In this document: positions 4,487 through 64,000 of the stretch, piece by piece
Layout: each line of letters begins with the position of its first letter
Position numbering within the stretch: the stretch's first letter is position 1
Assembly: GCA_003999685.1 (NCBI GenBank)
Contig: CP021224.1
Coordinates: forward strand, 1,426,001-1,490,000
Direction of reading: 5' to 3'
Length of the DNA: 64,000 bases
Source: Taiwanofungus camphoratus
Taxonomy: Eukaryota > Basidiomycota > Agaricomycetes > Polyporales > Taiwanofungaceae
Translations under genes and position numbers: made by a program
Notes under the pieces: generated by a model
The model's input: only the letters and a program-made list of their open reading frames with translations
Told to the model about the DNA's origin: nothing
Database searches by the model: none

Positions 4487-5604
4487 TACTCCTCAGCCAA
4501 TGCCAAAGCTTGCTCGAGATCATCCTCTTCTACTAATGCAGCGGTAGGGATAGCGTTGCCGAAGTATAGGCGTTGAAAGACTATCGCTGGTATGAAATGA
4601 CATCGCTAAGCAGCCGACACGAGCGGTCAAAGGAGCGTGGCGTACCGCAGTCGATCGACAATTGGAATATTGAGCAGATTTTAAACTGCAAGGGAGAACC
4701 CTGGATAAAGAAATATACGGACCTGGTACTAACGCTTTAGGGATGAACTTTGATCAACAAATGGACTCACTTAAAAGCATCTCCACCGAACCATCCGAGG
4801 AGAGTTGACATCCTGAAACCATATAGCGAGCGCTGTTTGTGATTACTACATTGAAAATGCTTAAGTGAATACGTATTCAGACAACTGATTGCAAACCTGA
4901 TGAGCTGAGGTATTGGTAGTGTGCTCTCCAGACCCAAGGCGACAAATCCGAGTATTGACACAAAAATGGTTGAGCGTCCAAAAATCAAGAACAAGATCGC
5001 TTGGCAGATTCTGTGGTTGTATGAGAATCAATGCAAGCGTTATATTGACACTGTACGCCTACATGAATCCTGCGAGAAATTCGATGTACTGGGTGTAGTT
5101 CGGCCATTGCCAGAATGCTAAGGGTCGCGTTGAGGCGCCTATGTTCTCAGGGCTCGTATGTGGACGGTAACGTATACAGATATACAGCAGAGCTAGCTGA
5201 GAATCACAAAAGCCTCAACACGACGCTGCACGGGAAGAGGAGCATCCTCACCTGAGCTAAGATCATAAATAAGGACTGAAACAGAAGCGCAAACTCGAAT
5301 CGGTCCCCCAGCCAGAAGAAACAACGAGTTATGTTCGCCAACAGCCTAGAGATCAGCCAATCAGAATTCAACCAATGGGGTTAAGTAGAGGTTCGCACAG
5401 TATAGCGCATACATCACGCGAAAATCCTGTTGAGTCTCTTAAAGTAATGGGAGACTGTCGCGTGAGTGCACATTACAAGCCCTATTGAAACTCAAGTTGA
5501 ACATACTGTTTACGAACGATGGAATAAGCTTGATCGGCGTAGACAAGCGGAGGGCCCACCGCCATGCCTACGGAGGCCAGCGTCGAGAGCCAGGCTGGAA
5601 TCAT
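4487..5604 (-). CDS. ANY1: PQ-loop membrane protein, Any1/SLC66A2-like
   Basis: Small PQ-loop transporter-fold protein of the SLC66A2 (PQLC1) group; yeast Any1/Cfs1, its counterpart, acts in endosomes and Golgi and offsets loss of phospholipid flippases. The start MIPAWLSTLASVGM at 5604 is followed by about six short exons. Spliced pieces match the family in order: a first PQ-loop ending GFSRDVCAILLLANITRCFF, then FEFALLFQSLFMILAQ, a loop with PLAFWQWPNYTQYIEFLAG, and the second PQ-loop LESTLPIPQLI followed by SLYGFRMSTLLGWFGGDAFK. The last exon ends EDDLEQALALAEE with the stop at 4487. About 260 residues, normal for the family, with several hydrophobic spans and no signal peptide needed. Exon joins were inferred from GT/AG signals and conserved text; the join after the first exon (acceptor near 5433) is the least certain. 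Confidence 0.85.
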
Positions 5605-5777
5605 GGTGGCAACCCGGCAGTAAACGGTGGAAATCGAATGGGATGCGTCACTGGCACAGCTTGCCGCTCGGACTCCGTACGATCAGACAAGGCGCTACGC
5701 ATCTACTTATTGCCGTTTGCAGTATTTAGCACGCGCGGCGCATTCTGCTCTTGACAGTCAGGAGAGATGTGTACGTA

Positions 5778-6008
5778 GAGACCGGAACACCCTACATAGG
5801 GGGTGATCCTTGAAGCCCTGGATGAGGGCTATTGAGCACCATAGTGGTATGTGGTGATTTTGTTGACACTTTTTGGGCCTTCCCCTGTAGGCAAAAAAAA
5901 CTGTCTAGAGACAAGGATGTACTTTATAAAATGATCTATTATATCGTAGGGGTGGGTTTGCATGTCAGAGGCTTCAAAAATCACCCCTATGTAGGGTGTT
6001 CCAGTCTC
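5778..6008. mobile_element. MITE-like inverted-repeat element
   Basis: A non-coding element of about 230 bp has two inverted arms of roughly 38 bp. The left arm (5778-5815) contains GGAACACCCTACATAGGG and the right arm (5971-6008) contains its reverse complement, with few mismatches. The core (5830-5960) has no open frame of interest and is AT-rich. Arms this similar around a short core are typical of a miniature inverted-repeat transposable element. I could not settle a target-site duplication, so the exact ends and the superfamily are open. Confidence 0.7.
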
Positions 6009-6178: not shown

Positions 6179-9100
6179 TCAGCAAGCGGGTACCGTCAAG
6201 GGGATCTTGACAGTTTTCTGAATTTAACAGGCGAAATAAAAATCAACATCGAGGTCAGACCAGACAGAAGAGAGACCGTCGGCGCATAACTCACCGCGAG
6301 GCCCTAAACACCAACAGCAGCATGTTAGCTGCACATGCATCAAAGAATTGGACCCAGGCTCACCGAAAGACTCGTCTCCTTGTATTTTACACTCATGTCT
6401 ACTGCAGTCAAGCGCATGGCCTCTATCGCCTCATCTAACGAGACGCTATACACGTTTTGACTCGCCATTGACAGTTGCGCCGCTGTCACAGCTTTCACAG
6501 CTACAAAAGGACATACTTGTGAGACGGGAAGCTGACGACTACGTCCGCTTTAATTCTTACCTCCCAAACTGTTGCGTTCCTAAAGAGGCGATCGTCAGCT
6601 CGTGAACCTAGCATAAGTCACGAGGAAAGCCGTACTATACAAGGGACTTGCACAAGACCATCGATAGGATCGCATGTCAAACCCAGGTTGTGTTCTGATT
6701 CCGGTAAACAACTTCAGCTGACCTAGGACAATAGCTCAACAAGATATAATACCAATGCCAATTTCAGCTGCCTGAGAATGATGTCAGCACGGTTTATGGT
6801 AGGAAACTCGTGTCAAAAAAAGACTTCCCTGGAGCACAGTCTCTGGATCGGCTAACCGTGCTAGATTAGTGATACGTCAACGTTGCGGAAATTATGGGCT
6901 TACCACCCATACAAGCCGCAAAGCCTGCGCTCGCCATGGAGCATGCAACTGCCGCACAAGATGTCTTCCTTGAGTAACCTGACCATGAACGGAATCTTGC
7001 ACCCATACCTCCCACTTCGGCCTGACACCCTCCCTCCGCTGCAGAGATAGTGCTTCCCCGTTTGAAGAGCATTCCAATTGCCTTTCCACGCCGCGTGAGT
7101 CATGATGATCGACCTGAAGGAACCCGCGCCCGTAACTCACAGCGGCAGTCAACAGAAATGTGGTGACAGATTTTTCTGGATCGTCGCTTACAAACTAACC
7201 CAGCATTCAGTACGAGTATCAGATCGTTCATGCAAAATCATCATATTGGCATACCTCTACGATATACTTCAGTACGGCAGGAATGACGCCTGCCGCACCG
7301 TTCGTCGGAGACGTGACGATGCGGCCGCCGCTTGCATTAACTTCATTCACCGCAATAGCATAACAAGACAAGAAGTCCATCGCAGGTATCATCGTTTTTC
7401 GCTGTACGTCAGCGTCAGCCCAGTGGGGCAAAAGAAAATTGGAATATGAACCTACAGGAGGTACAGGTAAAATCGGGTGCTCAAGGGACCCGACCACCCG
7501 CGTAGCACGCGCCGCTGATGGTTTCCCTCCTTTATGGTTGTCCGAGTAAGAAGCATTATCAAATTCGGCAGATTCCTGCATGGCGGGCATCCTGCCTCCA
7601 GGCGCATTGATACTCCCGGCGGACACAGATCCCGCGCCAATCGCAGGAAGAGTAGGGGAGACAAGTCCTGGGTAGAAGCTGGACGCAAATCAATTGCTTG
7701 ATATTGAGGTGCGAGCGAAGTTACCCTCTCATCAAACGACGATATAGCATGGGAGCACGTCGCCGAAGACCCAACCGTCCTGGGAGCTTCTCCTCAGCTG
7801 AGGAGACACCCATTCGAATACAATCGTCCATGACGCCCCATATTCGCATCAACTGCATGGGCTCATCAATATCAGTTTCCCTTAATTTGGTGGTGACACG
7901 TGAGAACCAACCTTTTGATCAATCTCTTCATGTGAGTAACCAAAGTGTAGCTCATTGTCATAAACAATTTGAGCAATGGTCATCTATAGTATAGCGTAAG
8001 TGGTCCCCAAGAATGACAGGAACGAGGTAGATGTGCACACATTATGCTTTTTTGTGAGGGCCAATAGGCTGTCTCCAGACTATTGCGACTATGCATGAGT
8101 CTTACAATTACTCAGGTTCGTGGACCAGACGTACAGCGAATGGATATGGTGGTTGACAAGGATCCAGAGCTTGAGGCTGTTCTCCTACAGCAGGCTCGGA
8201 GTGGTGCGTCTGGTGTAGCCGTGCGCCGTGTACTGCACTCTTGTCCACGCCTTTGTAAAATAAGTTCTCGTCCGCTAATCACAAGGTAATTCAGTAGTTC
8301 AATGATACGCAACTTCAGAAACCTGCCTTTTGTCTTATCGTTGACTACGAAACCACCCCCAACGCTACAGAGCGCTCTCATGAAAATGATTACCCGCCTT
8401 CTGGGGCTCGACCTACCTGAAGTACTCATTCGTAGCAAGCAAATCGCCGTCATGTCCGAAAACGGAGAAGCGCATCCCATTCGGATGTGTCTTGAGTACC
8501 TGGTCCCAGCGCCACAACATGTCGCGGTCCATGTCATATGTAATGCGGTGCTTCCCACCAAGCATGAGCGTTTTGTTTTCGAGAATTGAGGCATACCTTG
8601 AGGGAATGGTGCCAGTATCGATTGTCTCGGGGTCAGAGCCTATATGGAGCGCGAAATGCTATGTCAGCAGCCATGTTCATACTATGAGTAGGAAGCATGG
8701 GACCTTCTAGCCCGAGAAGAATAGCTTGCGGCGTATGATGGCTGTGAAAAACTAATCACTTCAGCACGTTTGGAAAAGGGGGGCATGCAAACCCTTTGCC
8801 TGTGACAGTTGACTAAGCGTTAAAAACCAATGTATTCTGTTGACAATGACAAATAAAATGACCTGTTGCAGCTAACGATCCATAACTATCATGTCCTTGT
8901 AAGTGATGCGAGATAGAAATGTGGCCATATGGAGTAAGGGACTCACAGAGTGATTTTGACAGTCTTGATCTAGACCGCATTGAGTCAATGAAGACCAGAA
9001 GAATGGAGCCTACAAAAGCAAGTCCCACCTTCTCTAACAGGCCCAACTCAACAAGATCGGTGATGAAAATTTTACCTGCTCGCATGGGTCCCACTGTATG

Positions 9101-48612: not shown

Positions 48613-49788
48613 CTAACCTTTGCCAACGAGTGAAGTCGCTGCCACCCGCCTTCTCTTGTTCCCCCTTCTGATTTCTATGAGATCGTGCTCAATCTCTTGC
48701 TCCTTGCAGCTGGATATAAACACTAGGCTCTTCCCCAGGCCCCCTACGGCCTGTGTCTCCCTCCCTCCCCCCTTTGCTCGTCGTCTGCTGTTACTGCCGG
48801 CCCCACCCCCGCCATTGTAGCCATAATTGGATGTGTGAGTTAGGTGCGTGGAAGTGAGTGGGAGAGGGAAGGGCGAAGGGAGTTCGTCGACAGAGAGCGA
48901 GTGAGGATTGGGTAACGGGCCAGATGTGACGGGCCCTGAGGTAATGGACGTCATGACTCTGTTCGTCGGTGCATTTGCTGAGAGAGGAGTTGGCGGCGGC
49001 GACGTGCCACCTAGTTTATTGCGCAACTTGCGGGTGTTGTGCGTGCGAGACTGAGAATCCAATCCTGCATCTGATTATATGGGAATGACACTATAAGCCA
49101 AAAGATTCTTCAGGCTGAGAAACGTGCACACTCGCCTATAACAGTTCCCTCTCCGTCTTTCTCTTCCCGCGCTCTCCTTCTCCGCTCCTCGATCCCTTCT
49201 AGTAGCCGTTCCCTGATTCTGTCCCTACCTCGCTTCCACTCTTCTTCGACTTTCTCACGTTCTTCGTCGTATGCTATCTGTACGCATTCTAGATCGAGTT
49301 TCTCCTGCAGCGCCAAAGAGGCAAGGAGCGCAGAACGCTCCAGTGAGATAGAGTATAGGCGGAGATTGTAGGCAGGCAGCGTTTCCGGGCGTGTTGAAAG
49401 CTGTATTGATGTACTGTGTAAATCTGATATGATTTCTGTGTAATGCCTTCCAACGCTGCAGGGTTGCCACTCATAATTGGTTACGCTCCCGTCATGAGGA
49501 ATGTATACGCACTCGTCGCGCCTTTCGATCATCTCTTTTCCAAGCTTCCCAACAACTTCTCGTTTTCTCTTGTCCTTCTTGGGTTCGTCGATTGATGCAC
49601 CTGTACTTACCGGCTTCAGAATCACAAAAGGGTCATAATTTGAGTACATTCATACCAGGTGTTCGAGAACTGGGGCCTGCAGCAGGATGAAATAGCGTGG
49701 CAATATCAACCATCTCTGTAATGTTTGCTGTCCGTGCCTTGTGTGCAGGTGCATAGGGAAATGTAAAAACACCAGGCTGAGGTGGCAT
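48613..49788 (-). CDS. SDS3: Sds3-like subunit of the Rpd3L/Sin3 histone deacetylase complex
   Basis: Scaffold subunit that holds the class I deacetylase in Sin3/Rpd3 large complexes. Exon 1 is MPPQPGVFTFPYAPAHKART to SSRTPG (49788-49655). The second exon carries KRKREVVGKLGKEMIERRDE and the family core: ERSALLASLALQEKLDLECV, AYDEEREKVEEEWKRGRDRI and RERLLEGIEERRRRAREE, a long helix for dimerisation. A GC-AG intron (49071-49135) joins GTVI to DAGLDSQSRTHNTRKLRNKL, and the Ser/Pro-rich stretch that follows ends with HDLIEIRRGNKRRR and VGKG, stop at 48613. A possible donor at the very end means a further short exon cannot be excluded. About 370 residues. The family call is good, though the fungal Sds3 and Dep1 groups are hard to tell apart by eye. 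Confidence 0.8.
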
Positions 49789-50042
49789 GCTGCAGCGTAT
49801 TGCCTCTCTGGTTCTATATTGCGGGGTTCCAAAGGTACAGAGTTAACAAAGATACGACTGAGAGATATCGCTCGATGGAACAAGGAGCTTGCACTCACTT
49901 GCGAGGGGTATTGAAGAGACAATACAGTATATGCAACGCTCGTGGGGCAGTCCACTATTGCGATCAATTGTCACGTGATAGCAATTCGATTCGCCTCAAC
50001 CTAAGCGCTCAGACACTGTCACAGTGTCTCGAACTCGACTGA
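49789..50042. promoter_or_regulatory. SDS3 promoter, left border of kinase array
   Basis: This 254-bp segment is the last unique sequence before the FunK1 array. It holds the presumed Sds3 promoter. Homology to the sister kinase copy begins abruptly at about 50043. Confidence 0.4.
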
Positions 50043-51901
50043 ATATGGCCATCTAACTATTGACTGTCTATGTTCAAACTCATCGTACTTAACTTCCTGC
50101 ATACATAATATGAAAGATACTTGGAGGGATGACAGGCGCGATCTCGCAGACGAACTGTACACGCAAATTGGCAAATGTGAAGGTATGGCGAAAGTGCACG
50201 CATATTGTGCAGTCATGGTAGACGAGCAGCTCGATATGACGCGGAACCTAATTCGGCACGACTTGGCACCAGAAGGAAATCCTATCGTTATAGATGCAAG
50301 GCAGAGACGAGCGCCTCGCCATCCCATCCACTCTCCTGGTGGAGAGTGGCAAAGTGTCACGTATCACATTGACCAGGATTACGTGCCAAGGGGACCGCTA
50401 CCCGCAGGGAAACAACTTAAGGATATACAATTTCGAGGAAAAACTCACTCCAGGCTGGTGATGAAAACATATGGTTGGCCAATCAAGTTCGCAAAGTCAC
50501 TGCTTGAGATGGTAGGGGCATTCAAGGATGCTATTGTCGGTGAGTCACCTCTGGCTATACTAACCTCTCGACGCAACTATGCTAGCGATTGCATCTTGCA
50601 GGCCACCGTAGCTCCTTCCAGAAAAACATGCTGCATCGAGATATCAGCATAGGAAATATATTAATCATTTTCGAACCTAAGCATGGTTATCGAGGTGTTT
50701 TGATTGACTACGATAACGCGATTGCACTCAAACCTGATCGTGGACCGCTTCTCGATGATCCCATATCGGTAGATCATTCATGACACTGTCAATCATATGT
50801 TTAATGACTTTGAATTTTACACAGGGCACACGTCCATTCATCTTCCCCGAAATATCAGGAAGGAGGCCAATTTGGGTCAGTCGAAAACGTCCTAGGACAA
50901 CGCTGCGAATACACCCGAAGCACGACTTCATTCATGACCTAGAGAGTTTCTTCTGGGTTCTGGTCTGGCTTTGCATGTCTCGGAGCGGCCCAGCAAAGCG
51001 CCGGGAACAGCTCATAACCCCAAACTTCAGGGACGATGAGTTTTGCAAAACATTCAAGCAACTCTTTGAAGGGAGTGACGACATCTTGGTTTTGATGAAA
51101 TGGAAGGTACTCAGACACGACGAAGAATTTGATTCGGCGGTCTTAGACCATGTTACGGAGTGGTGTCGCCCCCTGATACCCCTTTTGAAGAACTTCTATG
51201 ATATCTTGACTGCAGCGTACGCGGATGAGAGCCGTAATTTCGACATCAACATCTACGAAGCCGTCATAAATGCATTCCAGATGATGGAGGACAAGTTGGA
51301 AAAGAGACCTGCAGATGCTGAAAAAGGATACGCGGAATTGAGCGAGCATGAGGAGGCACGACGACATCGGGACTTGCAAGGACATTGGGATCTGTCTTCA
51401 CCTAAGATGCAGAAGACGGCCGCTGGGACACACTGTGTAGCTCACAGCAGCTTAATTTCACCTGGCACACCATCCAGAGACTGTGTGAACACAACCCATT
51501 TGTGGGGGAGATTTCACTATTATCAAGTTAATCCTCCCTGTCCTCCAGGTGATCATAAATAAGGTATTTTCACTCGAAAAGTGATGCATTTCACCTACAG
51601 ATGGGTATATCTCAACCGCCGCATGAGTAAGCTCGTGCAGGTGAAAATTCCTATAACTTTCACCCATCATGAGATTCACTCAGTGCACCAGTGAAAGTGA
51701 CTTTTCACTCGACGCGAGAGGGAAAGTCCACCGTGCGCACCTCCACGGTGACAGAAGATGGCCGCTGAGACACAGAAGCCGCCAACCCTCCCGCCAACAT
51801 TGCCCGCCTACCTTGAAGAACCTGGATCACCTACTCCCCAATTGAAGCGAGCTAAAACCGGGGAGATGCTCGACATCAGAGATTTTTCTCTCAATCACTG
51901 A
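50043..51901 (+). pseudogene. FunK1 kinase copy A, lacking its N-terminal half
   Basis: C-terminal half of a FunK1 (fungal-type) protein kinase. Homology to copy D starts inside the intron that in D follows the N-terminal half (57873), so the N-half was cut off, not mutated. An ATG at 50110 replaces the GTG of D and opens DTWRDDRRDLADELYTQIG. Kinase landmarks remain: MLHRDISIGNIL (HRD), LIDYDNAI in the DFG place, and KHDFIHDLESFFWVLVWLCM. The substrate-loop motif reads GTRPFIFPEISG where D has PFISPEILG. A 342-bp insertion at 51433 replaces the original tail; the original end (SKRAKTGEMLDIR, stop 51899-51901) survives downstream of it. The open frame itself stops at 51562. Whether the truncated gene is transcribed cannot be seen. 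Confidence 0.75.
51433..51774. mobile_element. 342-bp insertion with 23-bp flanking repeats
   Basis: Compared with copy D, copy A carries 342 extra bases here. The 23 bases before it (51410-51432, CAGAAGACGGCCGC...) recur with two changes at its end (51752-51774). The insert has no coding frame of interest, but has small hairpins, for example CACCGTG/CACGGTG at 51730-51751 and TTTTCACTCG/GTGAAAAG-type repeats at 51570-51710. It could be a short non-autonomous element with a long target duplication, or a local tandem duplication plus filler DNA. Confidence 0.55.
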
Positions 51902-52220
51902 TCGTATGGGCACATATCAGGGTCTAGTATGCAAATGGTGTGAGACTAAAATGAAGCGGCGTGGCAAATTATTGGGAAGTGAGGATGTTGGTGATGGATT
52001 GCGATCCTTTGCTTTGTATGCATGATTCAATATGCACTGCTTTCGTGTTATATATGTGCTCCGTAAATATTACTTTGATGAGTTGTCATAAAAGACAGTT
52101 GTCATTTACTTGGTAGCCTTCGGACGGCAATGTGGCATCGCCGTTCGAAAATTCAATCGAAGCTCTTTGTTCCAAGTCTGCCGCATTGGTACATTTTCCT
52201 GGCCACCTTGTCGCTATAAA

Positions 52221-54764
52221 ATGAAATGCACTTTCAACGAGGTGAGCCAAATCACCAACAGCTCAAGGTATGTCGTCAGTGCAAACCATAACTAATACAT
52301 CAAATCATGACGACAGCAAAGTTACTGCCAATCAACTTGACTTTGAGAATCCCCAAACACAAGTCGCTCAAGTTGAACGAGAGCTTCGCGGTGAGTTGGT
52401 GTATTCCGTCTTCTCTGATACACCGGAGTTCTTGGACACGCTATTCAACATCCCATCTCGTGTCGTCGAGACGATCTATGAAAGAGCATGTTCTGTAAAG
52501 CCCTGTCGCTACTCCCGCAGGGGCAGACATTGGACCGACATCCTCAGGACCACTGACCACGAGGCTTTGTTGTATGAACCATTCGTCAACATTGCCAATT
52601 TCATTACGGATTGCTGTCGTGAACCGAAGCTTCCCATTCGTTGGGTCTCTAATCCAACTCGCTCTCCGACGTTTCTTGATTCAAAAGCCACCAATACGAG
52701 ACCTGATATCATGGCCACTGTGAACTTCCCGGAGACCACGAGCAGTCTGAACTTTCGCAGTCGGAAGAGAAGAAAAGCCGGTCCACGGCCTCCTTGGAAT
52801 CGGATCCACGTTCCGATGGATGTGAAGAAATCATCCACTCATGGACCAGCGCTCTTACAACTTCTCCAACATCAACGTCAAGTGTTTCATGAGTCTGTCG
52901 ACCGATGCTTCGTGTTTGGTCTAGCCCTGTCCCAGAAGAACTTGTATGTATATATTGCAGATCGTTCGGGTGTCTTAGGGGCAGAGGTGTTTGACATCCA
53001 CCAAGTAATGTTCCCTCACACGTCCTCGCTATTATGATCTGACACTGGTCATCTGTTTTGTTAGGAGCCAAAGAAACTAATACGTGTTATTGCCGGTATC
53101 TGCATGCTTCCACCATCGAGCCTAGGATGGGACACTTCGCTGCGCGCTCTGAAAAAGCGCGGTGTCTTTGCCTCACCTGGACTGCTTCGGTCTGAAGCGA
53201 AGTTGTCATACGAGTTCACACATGCAGAGTCGCCGACTCCACGCTATTGGACAATCGAGATGCCGAAACCGCGAACCATGCAAAATGCGTTCAAACGTAT
53301 TCGAGACGTTTGTGTTGTGGAAGCCTAACAGCGTTGCATGTAGGGAAATTATTCGTGGTCGAGCAACGCGAATATGGAAAGCATGGCACGAGAAAGACAT
53401 GCATCTGCCAGAGGAAGATCGAGAAGTGACTAGCTTAGTTTTTTATGTCGACATTGGCGTAATGACATTTTTATTGCAAATTTAGGTTTACATCGTCAAA
53501 GACACTTGGCGCGACAACAGGCGGGACCTTGAGGGTGCATCATACACACAAATCGGACACTGTGAAGGTGTAGCCGAGATGTATTCATACTGTGTGGTGA
53601 CTGTGGACGGAGAGCAGGACACAACAGAGACCCTCATTCGCCAAAATTTACATACCAAAGGCAAGCCTCGAGTCATAGATGCCAAGCAAAATGTCGCCCA
53701 GAAGGAGCCGGAAACCCTCAGAAGCTCTCCCGGCGGAGAGCGCTATGGTATCACCCGGTATACAGCGTTTCTAGATTATTTGCCAGAAGAGCTTCCTCCT
53801 GGAATCACGCTTCAGGATGTGCTACCTCGCGGAAGAACACATTCCAGACTTGTAATGAAAACCTATGGGTGGCCTGTGATATTTGCAAAGGCTGTTTTGG
53901 AGACTGTCGAAGTGTTTCGAGATGCCATCATAGGTGCGGATTTTACACGGTCTGCGAGCGTATGAAATGACTAAGATGTCAATGTATCATCAATACAGGA
54001 CACCGAAATTCGGTACAAAAGGGTGTACTTCATCGCGATATCAGTGTAGGGAATATTCTGATAACTGGCAAAAGCGAGCGTCGTCGCCGAGGCGTCTTGA
54101 TCGACTATGAGATTGCCATCCGGGAAGGACATATGCCACTTGCTGACGATGCTGCCACGGTAAGTCTACGCTGGTGTTCATTACGGTAGCTGATGCTGAT
54201 GTTCATCTTGCCTAGGGAACACATCCATTCATGTCCCCCGAGATTTTGGGAGGAGAGCCAACGCTCTACTTCCAAGGGCCTGAAGTGCCAAAGCATTGCT
54301 TTCTTCATGACTTGGAAAGTTTCTTCTGGTGCCTTGTTTGGCTCTGCATGAGTAAGGATGGAGCAAGACGTCGAATCGAACTCATTCCTGGAGACAACCA
54401 GCCCAAGAACAAAGCCCTTCGTGTTTTCTTCGCAAAGTTCCTTGAGGGTCCGGATGAGCTGTTGGTAGTAACGAAACTCGGCATTTTTCAGTATCAGCCG
54501 AGTTTTACCTCAAGGGTCTTAAACAACGTGACCGACTATTATCGACCTCTGGTACCTCTTCTTTCGAGTTTCTACCAAATCCTACTTGACGCGTATACCG
54601 ACGAGAGGCAGAAACTCGACATTGGTATATACAACAAGGTCATCGCTGCGTTTGAAAGTACCGAGGAGCGGCTGAATGATCAGCCCGTCGATGTCACCAA
54701 CAAATACCGCCGTCTTCGCGAGAAAGAAGAAGAACGACGTCGACAAGACTGTGACGGACACTAG
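52221..54764 (+). pseudogene. FunK1 kinase copy B, damaged
   Basis: Nearly full-length FunK1 kinase. A short first exon MKCTFNEVSQITNSS (52221) is joined over a 49-52 bp intron to KVTANQLDFENPQTQVAQVE. The N-terminal FunK1 domain follows, with DHEALLYEPFVNIANFI and NRIHVPMDVKKSSTHGPALL, then an intron at 53009-53065. Around 53265-53285 the copy is 8 bases shorter than copy E, which shifts the frame before FETFVLWKPNSVACREIIRG. The C-half (from 53488) has THSRLVMKTYGWP, GVLHRDISVGNIL, LIDYEIAI, GTHPFMSPEILGG and CFLHDLESFFWCLVWLCMSK. A TAG at 54762-54764 stands where D has Trp; beyond it the same frame runs on into an Arg/Gly-rich tail (RGSSTGRGRRRPRGRA, about 54925-54975), common in FunK1 proteins. 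With two lesions it is probably dead, unless unusual splicing bypasses them. Confidence 0.7.
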
Positions 54765-55552
54765 TATTACCATTCACCAAAGGTAGGCGAAAGCGCACAA
54801 GATCCAGCTAGCTCTTCTCAAGACGTGCTGGCAAGTTCGCCAATACCTGCTAGGAAACGCGCTAGACTCGAGGCTCCTCCTGATCACGACCAGCATTCTG
54901 ATCGAGACGACCAGCCCTCTAATCGTGGCTCGTCCACCGGCCGCGGTCGACGTCGACCTCGTGGTCGTGCTTCTACCTGCGGTCAAGGATGAGCTTCCAA
55001 TCGTGATCAGACTTCCAATCGCCGTCAACCAGCGACTGATGGTCAATCGTCTCATTCCGGTCAGCCCCCTCAAGGTACTCAGCCTTCTAGTCGCGGTGGA
55101 TCGCGGTCGGGAAAGCGTGGCCGGAGGTGCAGATAATTGAACATCGTGATGATTTGGTGTCCGAGGGTGGCTTCATCATTGAGTATAGCATTGATCTCGC
55201 TACATATTTTCTGTATAGTTGTTCCTTCCACATGTATTTGCACTGTTGTTTAGACGTCATGTGAAAACAATTAGCCTGTATTAAATGCTATGTATTAAGA
55301 CGACATGTAATGCCATTGTATACACACTTACAATACAATGATGACGAGAGCATACAGTGATTGAGATCCCCAGCCCACCACTTAGGTTGTTTCATAGACG
55401 GCAGTGTTGAATAGCCATAGCACCATTTTCCTATCCCCATGTTCCTTCCATCTGCCCTGCTCTCGGAACAAGTACTTAGTACACCCAGTGCAACATAGCG
55501 ACTGGAAATGAGTCTAGTACTCTGCCTGGCTCGATGACTCACAAGGCTTGCC
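54765..55552. other. copy B tail and spacer
   Basis: 54765-54990 still encodes the low-complexity tail of copy B in frame. 54990-55552 holds the presumed 3' region and AT-rich spacer with no gene seen. Confidence 0.45.
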
Positions 55553-55714
55553 ATGTGGCAAAGATGTACCTGTGGAAGCATGTCAAATTCCTGTTTGAGA
55601 ACTGCACAATATGGCGGAAGTTTAGCACTGCCGCTACTGTCGTTCTTGACTCACCCTGTGAAACCAATGCCAGACTTACTCAATTGGGCTGTGACTAGGA
55701 AGCCACTGATCGGA

Positions 55715-56115
55715 AATTGCCACACCTCATCACTTCATCCATGACTTGGAAAGCATGTAGGGATGGTCCAGCAAGACACCGCATTGAACTCGTTGACAGT
55801 AGTCAAGACACTCATAAGCCTTTTCGTGACGTCTTTGGAAGGCTCCTGGAAAAAGACACCGACGTTTTGATTTTGACAAAACAACGAGTCTTCCAGTCTT
55901 CGCCAAGTTACTCCAGGCTCATCAAGCATAACCCTACTCACTGTTGCGAGCCACTATTGGCACCGCTACTTCGCCAATTTTATGGTATCTTATGTGAAGC
56001 ATACGTGAAACGCGAATTCGACTGTTCGATATATGCATGTGTTATTCAGGTGTTTGACAGGATGGAGGAGAAGAAGGGACCAATCGATGCTATCGAGAAG
56101 TATCATGGGCTATGA
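55715..56115 (+). pseudogene. FunK1 fragment C
   Basis: Remnant of the C-lobe of another FunK1 kinase. CATCACTTCATCCATGAC (55728-55745) is the HHFIHDLES motif, but the frame changes straight after it. DGPARHRIELVDSSQDTHKP then runs to RMEEKKGPIDAIEKYHGL (about 55757-56112), parallel to the last third of copies B and D. Everything before the motif is missing. It is more diverged from A, B and D than they are from one another, so it is an older loss. Confidence 0.7.
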
Positions 56116-56222
56116 CTGAAGGAAGAACATCGACTTCGAGGCATGCATGGACATTGGGATCCGTCTTTTTCAGGAGCACCAGGCCCCAATCCTCATACAT
56201 TGCCCAAGCAGGATTTGTAGGC

Positions 56223-56278
56223 TGGAACGTGGACAACACCTTGCATAGTCTGCATACTCCGATGTTGTCCACGTTCCA
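56223..56278. repeat. perfect 16-bp inverted repeat (hairpin)
   Basis: TGGAACGTGGACAACA (56223-56238) is followed after 24 bases by its exact reverse complement (56263-56278). The loop has TGCATAGTCTGCATA, itself nearly symmetric. It lies in the spacer between fragment C and copy D. Confidence 0.85.
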
Positions 56279-56648
56279 ATCTAGAGTCATTTCGGGCCAG
56301 AATGACTCATCTTGGTGGATGCCATATGCAGGAGGCAGTATCACGCACCGTGTATTGTACCTAGTGGGTTTTCAGTTCGAGAGGCTCAAGTGTGTCGAGA
56401 GTTTAGTAAATGGGATGCATAAAAGTGCTAGGCAGGACTCGAAGTATATACGTACGCACAAAAGAGACGTCTAGCGGACCTGCTCAATACAGTTGCAGTC
56501 ATCGATGTAAAAGGCAACTGTTGTGACGGGGACCGTTCCGTGAGATACGAACATGCAACGCGGCTAGAGCGTTTGCTCTGACCTGCGGTCCGTTCATGCT
56601 CCTTTGGTCAAGATATCGTTGTGGCACTGCGGCTGTCCGTAGCTTAAC

Positions 56649-59406
56649 ATGAAGCGTTCTTTCGATGAGCTAACTGAAACCTCCCCTGGTTCCGGGTATG
56701 TCGTCGGCTCCTGACATCAAGCGTCTTCCCCGTCTGATTTGGCAAAATACACCTTTGGGCAAAAACAGAAGTGAGACCACTCATTCTCAGCAGGCCGAGT
56801 ATAAGACCCTTGCTCATCAAGTCAATGCTGAACTTCGCGATGAGCTCCGATATTCTGTCTTCTCGAGCACCCCGCACTTTCTCGACACATTCTTTCCTGT
56901 CTGCCCCTCGCTTGTTGAGGAAATCTACAGGAAGGCTTGCTCCATGAACCCTCCGGTGTATAGTGTCAAGGAGACCCTCTGGAATGGGTTTCCTAGAGAG
57001 AAGACAATACGTCAGGAGGCTTTACTCTATGAGCCATTCGTAAATGTTGCCAATTTCATCACACAGTCTTGCACCACATCCAGCAAACTCCCAGTCCGGT
57101 GGCTCTCCGACCCTAACCGTTCTCCTGCCCTCTCAGATACAAAGGCTGCGGACCTGAAGCCTGACATAGTCGCTGTTCTGAACTTTCCTGAGCCAGGACC
57201 AGAGGTAGAGGCGAAGAAGTCGCCTCCAAAGGCACCGTGGTCTCGCATTCACGTTCCAATGGAAGTGAAGAAAGCTCAGTCTGAAGCACCAGCTCTTCTT
57301 CAACTTCTGGGATACCAACGACAAGTTTTCTACGAATCCCATGATCGACGCTTTGTTTACGGGTTGGTCCTAGCTGCGAGAAATCTTTATGTCTATTTGG
57401 CGGACCGTTCTGGAGTCCTTGGCTCGGAGATGTTTGATATGCACACGGTAGGTCAATTATATGTATTGTCGACCTCGACACTGACGGCTTCACCTGCAGG
57501 AGCCTCACAAGCTCATACGTGTCATTGCTGCAATAGCAACCCTTCCAGCATCCCAACTCGGATGGGACACTACCATGCGCGCTATACCGAAGCAAGCACT
57601 CGAGCGTCCATCGGTATTCTCGGCTTCCGCTTCGAAGCCCTCATACGAACATGACTACTCGGAGGGGAACCCGGTTGAATGTTATTGGGTGGTTCAAATG
57701 CCAATGCAGAAGGAAGGCAACCCAGTGGAGATGCAGGCAGACGTCATGGAGACGTTTATTTTGTGGAAGTCTATTAGCCTTTCGCGAGCAGAGGTGATCC
57801 GCGGGCGAGCCACTCGTGTTTGGAAAGCTTGGCATGAGAAAGATATGGGCTTGCCTGAAAGTGAACGTGAGGTACGGCCATCTAACTGTTGATTATCCAT
57901 GTTCGAACTCATCGTACTTTTACTTGATAGATATATATCGTGAAAGATACTTGGAGGGATGACAGGCGCGATCTCGAGGGCAAACTGTACGCGGAAATTG
58001 GCGACTGTGAAGGTGTTGCGAAATTGCATTCATATTGTGCAGTCATGGTAGACGAGCAGCTCGATACGACTCGGAACCTAATTCGACGCGACTTGGCACC
58101 AGAAGGAACTCCTATTGCCATAGATGCAAGGCAGAAGCAAGTGCCTCGGTACCCCATCCACTCTCCTGGTGAAGAGTGGCACAGTGTCACGTATTACATT
58201 GACCAGGATTACGTGCCAAGGGAATCCTTACCCGAAGGGATACAACTAAAGGATGTACAACCTCGTGGGAAAACACACTCTAGGCTGGTGATGAAAACGT
58301 ATGGTTGGCCAATCAAGTTCGCGAAGTCACTTCTCGAGATGGTAGGGGCATTTAAGGATGCTATTGTCGGTGAGTCACCTTTGGCTATACCGAAGTGTTG
58401 ACACAAGCATGCTAGCGATTTCATTTTTCAGGCCACCGTAACTCCTTCCAGAGGAACGTGCTGCATCGAGATATCAGCATAGGGAATATATTAATCGCCT
58501 CCAAACCTATACCTGGCTATCGAGGAATTTTGATTGACTACGAAAATGCGATTATACTCAATTCTGGTCGTGAACCGCTCCTCGATGATCCCCTATCGGT
58601 ATGTCAATCACGACACCGTCAATCATATGTTTAATGACTTTATTTTTATACAGGGCACACGTCCATTCATATCCCCCGAAATACTGGGAAAAAGTCCTCT
58701 TTGGGCCTACAGCAAACGAGAGGGCAACCTAAAACGTCCTAAGACAATGCCGCAATTACAGCCGAAACACGACTTCATTCATGACCTAGAGAGTTTCTTC
58801 TGGGTTCTGGTCTGGCTTTGCATGTCTCGGAGCGGCCCAGCAAGGCGCCGGGAAGAGCTCATAACCCCAAACTCCACGGACGATGGGTTTTGCGAAACAT
58901 TCAAGGGACTGTTTGAAGGGACTGACCGTGAGCTGGTTTTGATGAAATGGAAGGTACTCAGACACGACGAAGAATTCGGTTCGGTGGTCATAAACCATGT
59001 TACGGATTGGTGTGAACCCCTTTTACCCCTTTTGGAGAAGTTCTATGATATCTTGGCCAAAGCGTACGCCGATGAGAAACGCAATTTCGACGTCGAAATC
59101 TACGAGGCCGTCATAAATGCATTCCAGACGATGGAGGACGAGTTGGAAAAGAGACCTGCAGATGCTGAAAAAGAGTACGCGGAATTGAGGGAACATGAGG
59201 AGGCACGACGACATCGGGACTTGCAAGGACATTGGGATCTGTCTTCGCCTAAGACACAGAAGACGGCCGTTGAGACACAGGATCCGCCAACTCCCCCGCG
59301 AACATTGCTCACCTACCTTGAAGAACCTGGATCACCTACTCCGCAGTCGAAGCGAGCTAAAACCGGGGAGATGCTCGACATCAGGAATTTTCCTCTCAAT
59401 CGCTGA
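56649..59406 (+). CDS. FunK1 fungal-type protein kinase, copy D (intact)
   Basis: The one FunK1 copy here with a continuous coding path. Exon 1 MKRSFDELTETSPGSG (56649-56695) is joined over an intron (to about 56770) to SETTHSQQAEYKTLAHQVNA. N-terminal FunK1 domain: EALLYEPFVNVANFI and WSRIHVPMEVKKAQSEAPAL, a PD-D/ExK-like text seen in the family, and NLYVYLADRSGVLG. Introns follow at about 57447-57499 and 57873-57931, the second leading to IYIVKDTWRDDRRDL. The kinase C-half has RLVMKTYGWP, LHRDISIGNIL (catalytic Asp), LIDYENAI in place of DFG, GTRPFISPEILG, and HDFIHDLESFFWVLVWLCMS. The end SKRAKTGEMLDIRNFPLNR stops at 59404-59406. About 760 residues. Role unknown; FunK1 kinases are tied by others to multicellular growth in mushrooms. 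Confidence 0.8.
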
Positions 59407-59710
59407 TCGTATGGGCACACATCTGATACGCAGTGGTGGAAAACCAATACGAAGAGGCGTGGCAGACCATTGAGAGGTGAGGATGTGGATAATGAATTGC
59501 GATCCTTTGCTTTGTATGCATGATTCCACATGTGCTGCTTTCGTATAATATGAGTACTCAGTAAACATTGCTTTGATGAGCTGTCGTAGTCATCGTCCTG
59601 ACTCTAAAAGGCAGTTGTCATTGATTTTGGTAGGACGGCAATGTGGCCTGAAGTTGAACATCGCCGTCTGCCGCAATTGTACATTTTTGTGGCCATCCGA
59701 CTCATCACTA

Positions 59711-62663
59711 TGAAGTGGGATGCACTTTCAACGAGATGAGTCAAATCACCAACAACTCAGGGTATGTCGTCGGTGCGAGCCATAGCTAATACATCAAATC
59801 ATGACAACAGCAAAGTTACTGCCAATCAACTTGACTTTGAGAATCCCAAAGCACAAATCGCTCAAGTTGAACGAGAGCTTCACGGTGAGTTGGCGCATTC
59901 CGTCTTCTCTGATACACCGGAGTTCTTGGACACGCTATTCAACATCCTATCTCGTGTCGTTAACACGATCTATGAAAGAGCATGTTCTGTAAAGCCTTGT
60001 CGCCACTCCCGCAGGGGCAAGCATTGGACCGACATCCTCAAGACCGCTGACCACGAGGCTTTGTTGTATGAACCATTCGTCAACATTGCCAATTTCGTCA
60101 TGGATTGCTGTCGTGAACCAAAGCTTCCCATTGGTTTCTAATCCAACTCGCTCTCCGACGTTTCTTGATTCCAAAGCCACCGACACGAGACCTGATATCA
60201 TGGCCACTGTGAACTTCCCGAAGACCACGAGCAGTCTGAACTTTCGCAGTCGGAAGAGAAGAAAAGTAAACGATCCACGGCCTCCCTGGAATCGGATTCA
60301 CGTTCCGATGGATGTGAAACAGTCATCCACTCATGGACCAGTGCTCTTACAACTTCTCCAACATCAACGTCAAGTGCTTCATGAGTCAGTTGACCGACAC
60401 TTCATCTTTGGTCTAGCCCTGGCCCAGAAGAACTTGTACGTATACATTGCAGATCGGTCGGGTGTCTTAGGTGCTGAAGTGTTTGACATCCACCAAGTAA
60501 TGTTCCCTCACACATCCTCACTATTATGATCTGACACTGGTCATTTGATTCATTAGGAGCCAAAGAAACTAATACGTGTCATTGCCAGGATCTGCCTGCT
60601 CTCACCATCAAGACTAGGGTGGGACACTTCGCTGCGGGCTCTAGAAAAGTGCAATGTCTTTGCCTCACCTGAATTGCTTCAGTCTGAAGCAAAGTTGTCA
60701 TACAAGTTGATGTATGCAGAGTCACCAGCTCCATGCTATTGGACAATTGACACACCTAAACTGTGGGCTGACAATTCATGCAAAATGCATTCGAACATAT
60801 TTCAGAGGTTTGTGTTATGGAAGCCTATGAGTGTTGCATGTAGAGAAGTTATTTGTGGTCAAGCAACATGGATATAGAAAGCATGGCACGAGAAAGACAT
60901 GCATCTGTCAGAGGAAAATTGAGAAGTGACTAGCTTATTTTTTTATGTCGACATTGGAGTAATGATGTTTTTATTGTGAATTTAGGTTTACATCGTGAAG
61001 GACACTTGGCATTGATATGCTCTATAACACTTCAACCCCTACTGGGTATGATCTAGAGCAGCTGAAAGGCTATAGAACTAGTTGGTATGCAAGGAAAGTC
61101 AGCAGTAAAGAGTTTTCGATCTCAAATTGGTCGAGAGATGTCTTCTCAGGTCTTCGATGACCTACAATGTGTGTCATGGCTATTCGATGTAGCTTTGATG
61201 CGCTACAGTGATGTGCTTATACTAGGGAGAGGCTTAGACATGAGGACTTAGCTGAACGCAACCCTTTGACAGATGTCGAAGACAGACTTAAATGTAACCT
61301 TTTAAAATACTGTAGAAGGCGGATACTAAACGCAACTCTTTGAATGTAATCGCAGACAGAAGGACACGGTAGAACGCAGTAGAAGACAGACTAGAAGGTG
61401 CTCTTTTTGAGCTCTGCAAAATGGGGGAAAACTTCTCTGTTGTTTTGAGACTTCATACGTCACATTTATACTACTTTACTATAATGTAAGGCACATCAGG
61501 AGTGGCATAGTACGGGTGGCATTTTAACTACTTGTGTACTATGAACTACGGAGTAGCTCGTAGAGAGAGTGGCTACTGTACTGATGTCACTAGGAAGGCT
61601 GAGATAACGGAACGTATATAGACTAAGACGACATCTGTGGCCGTAGCATTATCGAGTGCATCGAGTGGTGCGTCAAAGCTGATCAAGTGATATTAGGGTG
61701 GCGTGACTGGTCACGTGCAAGGGCCTTTGAGTGGTGACTGTGTGTGGTGTATTGTGTGTAGAGAGAACAGTGTGCCAGAATGTCAGACCGGACTTGACAG
61801 AGTGGCTGTGATGTGATTTGAAGCTATCGAAGAGTCTCATGGTGGCTTTTTAGGCTGTATCGGACGCGTCAAGTGGTGTTAAAGTCATGACTAAGATCCT
61901 AGGGTTGAGTGAGGGCGCTCTGTGGGGCCTAGAAGGGCCTGGCGCCTATCAGCATGATGACAGGCATGACCTTGATGGTGCATTATACATGCAGATCAGA
62001 TATTGTGAAGGCATAGCCGAAATGTATTCTTATTGTGTGGTGATGGTGGACGGAGAGCAGGACACAACAGAGACCCTCATCCACTGCAAATTGCATACCA
62101 AGGGCAAGCCTCGAGTCATAGATGCCAAGCAAGGTGTCACCCAGAAGAAACCGGAAACCCCCAGAAAATCTCCCAGTGGAGAATGCTATGGTGTCACCCG
62201 GTATACAATGTTTCTAGATTATTTGCCTAAAGAGCTTCCTCCTGGAATCATGCTTCAGGATGTGCTACCTCACAGAAGAACACATTCCAGACTTGTAATG
62301 AAAACCTATGGGTGGCCTGTGAGATTTGCAAAGTCCGTTTTGGAGACTGTCAAAGTGTTTCGAGATGTCATCATAGGTGCAGATTTTACATGGTCTGCGA
62401 GTGTATGAAATGACTGAGATGTCAATGTATTATCAATACAGGACATCACAATTTGGTATAAAAGGGTGTACTTCATTGCGATATCAGTGTAGGGAATATT
62501 TTGATAACTGGTAGAAGCAAGTGTGGTCGCTGAGGCATCTTGATTGACTACAAGATTGCCATCCGGGAAGGACATATGCCACTTGCTGATGATGCTGTCA
62601 CAGTAAGTCTACTTCATGTTTATTATGGTAGTTGATCCTGATGTTCATTTTGCCTAGAGAACA
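59711..62663 (+). pseudogene. FunK1 kinase copy E, interrupted and cut short
   Basis: Sister of copy B. The N-half (59764-60530) is nearly identical to B, but is 5 bases shorter at about 60130 (PIGF where B has PIRWVSN), which shifts the frame, and the ATG equivalent to the B start is out of frame with it. The part from 60545 to 60900 keeps DTPKLWADNSCKMHSN, which B has lost. At 61013 a solo LTR interrupts the gene just after the coding text for KDTWH. The C-half resumes at 61956 and ends at about 62663 within the segment that follows the HRD region (there LHCDISVGNI, with Cys for Arg). The rest of the kinase is missing. From about 60600 on it is full of CpG to TpG/CpA changes. A dead gene. 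Confidence 0.85.
61013..61951. mobile_element. solo LTR of an LTR retrotransposon (fossil)
   Basis: A 939-bp insertion in copy E begins TGATA and ends TATCA, the TG...CA inverted ends of long terminal repeats. It is flanked on both sides by GCAT (61009-61012 and 61952-61955), a 4-bp target duplication that occurs once at the empty site implied by copy B. No internal coding part follows, so it is a lone LTR left after recombination. The superfamily (Ty3 or Ty1 type) cannot be told from the LTR alone. It is younger than the duplication, since copy B lacks it. Confidence 0.7.
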
Positions 62664-64000
62664 CACATTGGGAAAAACCTCCTGGCCTGATTAGCATTAA
62701 GTAGAGCCTATTGTACTCTATTGGTTCACTACTGCACTATATGCTGGCTACTACAAGACTACTTTGGGCCTCACAATGCTAATCCCCCTATGAGGCTGCT
62801 ATTTTGCACTGAGCTTGAGTATACACAACTATTTCAATGTACCTACTAGTCTATTATATATAAAATGTGGTTCAGTGTGGAAAATAAGGACCTTTGGATA
62901 TTATGCATCCAAAATATTGCTGTTCAAACTAGAATAGGGTCATACATGCCTGTCAGTCTGTAAAGGGATTGAGGCAGAATAAAGGGCTCTTATCATTACT
63001 ACTTAATCAATTTTGTGGTGCAATGGGACTGAAGTTTGGGTACAAATGGCAGCTCCACTTTATGATCTGGATATCAATAATACTTGCGAGATGAACACTG
63101 TTGCAAATGCAGCGCAATACCTTATAGAGCCCATGTATTCAGTCATAACCTGTAAACACAGTAAACCACTTGATACAGATAAGGTGTGCTGGACATGACT
63201 GATTAGGAAATGTCTTGGACATGCTTCCGAGGGAACAAGAAGACATGTCGAACTTGACCAACATGATAACTGGGTGTTTTGCAGAATAGTATTAGCTATG
63301 ATTACATAGGAGTTACAATCAGAAACATACCTGCAACACCTACAGAGCTGGCACCACCCTTATTGACATGCACAGTGTCAAAGTGCCCAGAGACATCATG
63401 CTTCTGCTTATCCTTGCGTTGAGAGACTCATAGTGAGTTGGTGACAAGAGATGGAAACTGGGAGATGGTCAAAGCCGAGCCATATCAACTTTGATTGGAT
63501 CTGAAACCATTATTAGCCAATGAGGAGCAATAGAGGCACATGGCTCACTTATGTAAGTGGCTAGCACAGCAGCATTATACCAAGCATGTCTCTTTTCTGT
63601 CTTACCCTTGCTTGCATCTCCTCTTACATTCTGCCCATCATTCTCTTTTATTTCTTTTGAGTGCCGATAGCATCCAGTACATGGGAAGACACTAACCATG
63701 CTGACACACTGACCATCTGTGGGGTTGCATCATATAAGGTATGCATAATTGACTTGAATATGCATGTAGCCAGCTCACTGTGTGTACAATTTCTGTGGTG
63801 AGATCAAGAAGAGTCAACACTCGGCATGCTAGAAGGAAATCAATTGACTGCTGTAAGACTGCTACATTTAACCCATGTAACCTCCTGGTGCGTCACCACT
63901 GATTGACAGTGTTCCACCTATCCACAGCTTTTACAGTAGTCTGTCCAAACTCTGACATGGTTTGAATATCTAGGTTCTCTGTCTCAGATTGATAAGTTCA
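62664..64000. other. CpG-poor repeat-like DNA of unknown origin
   Basis: The last 1.3 kb is AT-rich and has only about nine CpG pairs, far below expectation. It is unrelated to the kinases. Short coding-like fragments occur mostly on the minus strand, for example around 63470-63700 and 63740-63950, in different frames, as in a much decayed mobile element running off the right edge. I cannot name the family. Confidence 0.4.

Follow-up and report, generated by a model that had tools for sequence, protein, structure and literature searches.

FunK1 kinases (PF17667) are fungal-specific kinases described from Coprinopsis cinerea; the parts of the literature drawn on here report lineage-specific duplication, an expansion in dimorphic fungi and no known role (PMC3203195, PMC5852033). 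Here we describe a FunK1 locus of Taiwanofungus camphoratus contained in a 64,000-nucleotide stretch of contig C5 (C5:1426001-1490000, hereafter the window; the assembly comprises 33.19 Mb in 15 contigs), in which the intact kinase gene, kinase I, carries a hypervariable patch that appears to have been exchanged between paralogs. The FunK1 proteins of other fungi share with kinase I their family, by profile, and their lineage-specific expansion, but the same parts of the literature record expansions and active-site differences, not an exchanged hypervariable patch behind helix F (PMC3203195, PMC5852033). Nor did we find such a patch described for FunK1 or other fungal kinases in the open-licence PubMed Central literature, as judged by titles or abstract openings.

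Comparable patterns are known from other systems. For the hnwd (NLR) non-self recognition genes of Podospora anserina, the portions of the source used here describe inter-locus exchange, with conversion tracts that include an 88-nt case, and variation concentrated on the interaction surface (PMC2873952). Kinase I likewise has a variable segment with inter-locus exchange but, unlike the WD40 repeat array of these STAND proteins as those portions present it, the segment is a single non-repeat patch in a kinase C-lobe, and a recognition role is conjectural here (PMC2873952). A Pfam scan of kinase I returned PF17667 and no STAND or NACHT core with WD40, ANK or TPR repeats, the only repeat-type match being PF24760, below cut-off (E 0.4). 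In antigenic variation by gene conversion, silent copies serve as the source. Kinase I resembles such systems in the coexistence of intact genes with truncated copies bearing the variable segment, and differs from them in having only three truncated carriers, no expression site and no demonstrated use of donors. In PKR, sites in or near helix G are positively selected against a viral substrate mimic, according to the parts of the source drawn on (PMC11556786). Kinase I would resemble PKR in varying in the helix G region, a docking site for protein partners, if we place the patch correctly; unlike PKR, treated in those parts as a single gene across vertebrates, the copies of one genome here differ by exchanged blocks (PMC11556786).

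Kinase I and its hypervariable patch

The two features of the window that matter most are the following.

56698-59406, + strand: intact kinase I of unit 2, 826 aa (translation, splice sites, PF17667)
58866-58999, + strand: hypervariable patch, codons ~649-690, with core 58940-58999 (site variation among copies)

Kinase I has exons at 56698-57447, 57500-57871, 57931-58369, 58432-58598 and 58654-59406, and its product matched PF17667 (FunK1, Pkinase_fungal) over residues 172-632 with 259.8 bits against a cut-off of 24.1 (E 4.5e-77). The translation carries HRDIS, IDYE and HDLESFFWVLVW, corresponding to an HRD-like motif, a DFG-like motif and helix F. A PF00069 match at residues 526-591 was weak and below cut-off (E 0.0014), and a search of solved structures found weak similarity, confined to the catalytic loop (E 0.097 at best). 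Related loci found by genome search, in which match counts are lower bounds ('at least'), merged into 13 blocks outside the window: X, Y, Z, V, U, R and S on C5, 9a-9d on C9, one on C12 and one on C7. Full copies of kinase I numbered 11, six on C5, four on C9, plus S; its frame is open in 10 of them. W1 and W2 denote units 1 and 2 of the window, and U1 the first unit of block U.

The patch occupies ~130 bp behind helix F, and elsewhere kinase I is near-identical within groups of copies. Among the six C5 copies, 13 of 2303 sites varied in 56563-58865 as against 47 of 134 in 58866-58999 (Fisher p 3e-51); the four C9 copies varied at 4/2303 upstream sites as against 31/134 in the patch (Fisher p 1e-36), and all eleven copies, S included, at 136/2303 and 54/134, respectively. 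Blocks X, Y and Z were identical at 2303/2303 upstream sites, with one substitution in the 1.5 kb upstream of kinase I, and differed at 13-20 of the 60 core sites. These blocks are natural near-isogenic copies whose kinase I differs mostly in the patch segment. The same pattern was seen for V with U and among 9b, 9c and 9d; only 4/60 core sites differed between V and U, whose other patch differences lay in its first part.

Altogether, 13 different patch protein versions were present among 14 carriers, three of which are truncated (unit 1, with its patch match at C5:1477013-1477183, and the copies on C12 and C7). A search with the window patch, the sole version queried, revealed no orphan short donor cassettes outside kinase copies; by their coordinates, the 14 sites found correspond to the 11 full copies plus three fragments of kinases. 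The cores of the truncated carriers matched intact ones at 57/60 sites (W1-9c), 55/60 (C12-X and C12-9d) and 55/59 (C7-Z and C7-9a), matches compatible with transfer in either direction. Diversity-generating retroelements confine changes to the adenines of the template copy. We rejected adenine-directed mutagenesis of this kind, the patch changes involving all four bases at many sites.

Evidence for exchange between copies

Patch cores on different contigs were nearly the same in the pairs X-9d (59/60), Z-9a (58/60) and W2-9c (55/60), the upstream flanks of which matched at 394/419, 394/419 and 393/419 sites, that is, were ~6% different. Across 219 gap-free polymorphic sites, concordant runs reached 26, 23 and 19 sites against a maximum of 14 in 2000 permutations. 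The six C5 copies were grouped together by the N-half tree (100/100) and by the tree of the C-half before the patch (85/98), and the patch rejected that group in the approximately unbiased (AU) test (p 0.015). The earlier note on this DNA had expected halves of the kinases to be discordant; discordant pieces were indeed found, but the strongest exchange signal is a short patch in one exon and not the halves. Judged from the sequences, there is good support for conversion between paralogs or for an exchange of segments among them.

Some other FunK1 groups, though not all, showed a similar jump in divergence. Among five C11 copies, non-synonymous divergence (pN), 0.028 ahead of helix F, rose to 0.149 in the interval 20-100 residues past its start. 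The trio s, t and u on C8 (loci L081-L083) is near-identical up to a point 44 residues past where helix F starts and strongly divergent from there to the stop codon, pN in the last exon stepping from 0.006 to 0.288 and synonymous divergence (pS) from 0.056 to 0.621 at that point. At these C8 loci a whole C-terminal module seems to have been swapped or retained. Among seven pairs in the group at 2.1-2.75 Mb of C5, divergence climbed strongly past helix F in three and slightly in one, formed a small peak in another and showed neither in the last two; L061/L062, a pair with a strong rise, had peaks before helix F also. In the neighbouring kinase of the array, kinase II, U1 and V agreed at 107/121 patch sites, 211/220 just before and 232/234 after.

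Selection, function and alternative explanations

We favour, with moderate confidence, short-tract exchange between paralogs that is maintained by selection on a docking surface. Gene conversion over tens of base pairs among paralogs would rewrite the patch, with kinase fragments that lack the N-half perhaps among the sources, and selection would retain new versions. The patch would be a substrate- or partner-docking surface, presumably the helix G region, as suggested by its place behind helix F together with general kinase anatomy. The selection acting on the patch, and its function, we infer. Use of a docking kinase in recognition would be the least certain step, and a recognition role for these kinases is a reasonable guess by analogy. 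Both pN and pS were elevated in the patch (pS 0.16-0.20), as expected with the import of divergent tracts. For kinase I as a whole, the ratio of non-synonymous to synonymous substitution rates (dN/dS) in the N-half of W2 against S or the C9 copies was ~0.25, and 0.58-0.82 in the C-half of the same pairs; the open frames and the low N-half ratio suggest that the kinase I proteins are used.

Several observations weigh against the exchange of a selected patch as set out above. The patch pN/pS was 0.96 in the six C5 copies and 0.65 in the four C9 copies, not clearly above 1, and that of the 18-codon core 1.52 and 1.00; it was 0.70 in the C11 copies and 0.46 in the C8 trio. Patch pN/pS does not prove positive selection. 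The patch did not reject the C9 group (AU p 0.108), and the longest shared run, in which S agrees with W2, V and U at 42 sites (58226-58695), is not in the patch, which argues that conversion is not confined to the patch and that longer conversions occur too. Differences accumulate elsewhere as well: 26 of the 46 sites at which Y and Z differ fall in kinase II (block positions 5601-5970), beside the inserted repeat of Z; 18 of the 43 that distinguish V from U fall outside the patch bin; and the middle exons of kinase II differ at 63/998 sites between U1 and V. No patch rise was apparent in kinase II between W1 and X (118/121), no jump in the 349-aa group L004-L006 or in the pairs L059/L060 and L063/L065, and the C8 copies p, q and r peak in the C-terminal tail instead. 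An AlphaFold2 model of the final kinase I exon (four window rows) had a mean predicted local distance difference test (pLDDT) score of 46.6, which makes the placement of the patch in the model unusable, and all data come from one single genome.

The alternative that survives best, possible although we consider it unlikely, is concerted evolution, in which long conversion tracts homogenise the backbone and old patch differences survive since divergence blocks pairing. The high synonymous divergence of the patch, which in the C8 trio attains 0.62, indicates that patch sequences are old, as this explanation would have it, and a longer shared tract does exist outside the patch. However, the 1.5 kb of near-identical upstream DNA in X, Y and Z and their common block starts look like the outcome of segments having been copied recently, not of repeated homogenisation, and the occurrence of one core on different backbones (X-9d, Z-9a) needs either transfer into the patch or parallel survival in both groups. 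An extension of short-tract exchange, which we regard as doubtful, is a cassette system: dispersed intact FunK1 kinases with a common backbone would have a docking segment of ~20-40 residues rewritten by targeted short-tract conversion from paralogs and N-less fragments (for example unit 1), so that a single genome would possess kinases of many specificities with which to recognise non-self or parasites.

We regard as very improbable an ordinary tandem duplication at one locus followed by decay, in which the patch would be a relaxed, dispensable loop. It would accommodate the several broken copies and a core pN/pS near 1, compatible with weak constraint, but frames are retained in all but one of the full kinase I copies, and relaxation yields point changes, not multi-site mosaics common to several contigs. 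Nor would relaxation raise synonymous divergence ~80-fold in the patch alone, as observed for the six C5 copies (0.0021 to 0.16). Least credible of all is an assembly artefact, with mixed reads of near-identical copies stitched into false mosaics, for although kilobase-scale near-identity is a known assembly difficulty, the blocks differ in their ends and inserts, the reading frame is preserved across the patches of full copies, and the jump behind helix F recurs in the separate C11 and C8 subfamilies.

If several subfamilies do have a variable segment at a constant position past helix F, the question of what FunK1 kinases do becomes testable through the binding partner of that segment. Such a segment would also place a kinase free of repeat domains among those fungal genes whose diversification resembles that of recognition genes.

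Dispersed blocks and hybrid kinases

The duplication at this locus had been described as a tandem one. It is not confined to one locus: counting the window, we assembled 14 related blocks, of which six are on the minus strand; the 13 others lie on four contigs (C5, C9, C12 and C7), on which ground we rejected a private, local duplication. The order seen in the window (kinase II, tail, kinase I, kinase II) recurs ~0.4 Mb away in block U, which is 96.9% identical to the window over 4955 columns from 55446 on. The shared order and this identity indicate that the two-unit order probably existed before the window and block U parted. A complete unit, consisting of kinase I, kinase II and tail, is present in block X. 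Blocks X, Y, Z and V have in common a stretch of at least 1.5 kb ahead of kinase I (99%) that is without counterpart in the window and U, a difference that sets the breakpoint at 56563. In the C9 blocks and S, kinase I was found without kinase II in the DNA examined. Block Z (C5:1543584-1551052), taken with its far side (C5:1535229-1536797), looks like an inverted copy of window 56563-64000 at a distance of ~45-67 kb, being 97.5% identical over 5.2 kb and 100% over 1.6 kb.

The earlier note had proposed that unequal exchange in such an array can make chimeric kinases, and products of this sort are present in blocks V and X. As far as the N-part of kinase II, block V follows the second unit of U (98.9% identity); from this join onward it matches U1 at 95.2%, as against 80.4% before the join. 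Its kinase II is an in-frame chimera of 666 stop-free codons, 101 codons shorter than the U1 copy; it is the type of product expected of unequal exchange and, as read from its frame, a candidate protein. Throughout kinase I, block X agrees with Y at 99.4%; a junction follows, with a 320-bp element and a unit-1-type kinase II, which has 84.6% identity to that of Y and matches W1 at 734/735 sites of the first exon and 957/995 of the middle. Exchange or deletion thus joined different units in blocks X and V. The related copies as a whole are segmental duplicates damaged by deletions, inserted repeats and CpG-type decay.

The tandem array in the window

The remaining features of the array and its flanks are as follows.

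49110-49649, - strand: Sds3-like gene frame flanking the array (PF08598, E 3.2e-8)
50044-51432, + strand: C-half of unit 1 kinase I, cut at the 5' end of intron 2, with its own patch version (85.7% to 57873-59279)
51433-51750, + strand: ~320-bp dispersed element, in unit 1 and block X, not in unit 2 (genome-search copies)
52270-54764, + strand: unit 1 kinase II, five exons, broken (exon mapping; PF17667 on exons 1 and 5)
54765-56562, + strand: unit tail, in which 55756-56112 is an isolated kinase C-lobe fragment (96.9% to block U from 55446 on)
56563, no strand: duplication breakpoint (upstream DNA common to the window and U, a different one in X, Y, Z and V)
59764-61003, + strand: N-part of unit 2 kinase II, broken (open frames, sequence, comparison with block Y)
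61005-61951, + strand: ~940-bp dispersed repeat within unit 2 kinase II (tens of genome matches)
61956-62665, + strand: part of the C-half of unit 2 kinase II, with CpG-type decay (transition counts)
62431-64000, + strand: right end and beyond (100% to C5:1535229-1536797, minus strand, on the far side of block Z)

The same ordered pieces had been noticed in 50043-54220 and 57876-62663, and self-BLAST of the window bore this out, pairing 50044-54223 with 57873-62665 at 85-88% identity. The three main alignments, all direct and collinear, join 50044-51432 to 57873-59279 (85.7% over 1409 columns), 51751-53510 to 59256-61010 (85.0%, 1794 columns) and 53517-54223 to 61960-62665 (88.0%, 707 columns); the remaining four pairs were short inverted ones (39 and 43 bp) or weaker kinase I/kinase II matches (65-68%). 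Start-to-start spacing was 7829-7847 for the left, 7489-7505 for the middle and 8443 for the right alignment, the steps from 7.83 to 7.50 to 8.44 kb arising because ~320 bp is inserted in copy 1 only and ~940 bp in copy 2 only. The array therefore has the collinear direct repeats and the period, constant apart from inserts, of a local tandem duplication. Two tandem units of ~7.8 kb that lost both outer ends inside kinase genes, as first suggested, are supported by the complete unit in block X and the two-unit order in U.

On the left, homology begins at 50044; its partner position, 57873, is base 2 of intron 2 in the intact kinase I, in agreement with the proposed loss within an intron. In a genome-wide search with 49600-54800 (64 matches listed), no match except the window itself started left of 50044, and the Sds3-match frame ends 395 bp from this limit. 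The right limit, 62665, lies ~8 bp beyond the last intron/exon junction of kinase II. The array contains a single intact kinase, 56698-59406, and both copies of kinase II are broken. That of unit 1 has an 8-bp deletion in exon 2 that shifts the frame and is missing from some relatives. In unit 2 the damage consists of a short deletion near 60131, whose frame break is also present in block Y, a stop near 60877, the inserted ~940-bp repeat and the lost end. Over the aligned exons kinase II is stop-free in X (754 codons), U1 (767, with no start codon at the aligned place) and V, and it is broken in W1, Y and R.

Within 61956-62665, 41 of the 58 copy-specific changes relative to X, Y and W1 were C>T or G>A transitions, and 20 of those fell at CpG; this decay resembles a repeat-directed mutation process or methylation decay. 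To the right of this segment G+C drops to ~42%. C-lobe fragments similar to 55756-56112 occur in block U and near block X, and with ~40% protein identity to kinase I the fragment is an unlikely donor for its patch. Reverse-transcriptase matches, at least 150, were scattered over many contigs and did not mark the kinase cluster. Copies of the ~320-bp element, many of them 90-93% identical, were found on C1, C2, C4, C6, C7, C9, C10, C11, C12 and C14; its site, close to the 3' end of kinase I, is the same in unit 1 as in block X, and it is there that block X passes from type-2 kinase I to type-1 kinase II. The ~940-bp repeat is abundant, in either orientation and often fragmentary, and in block Z its matches stand ~7.6 kb apart, so that a longer insert seems to be seated in the same kinase II copy.

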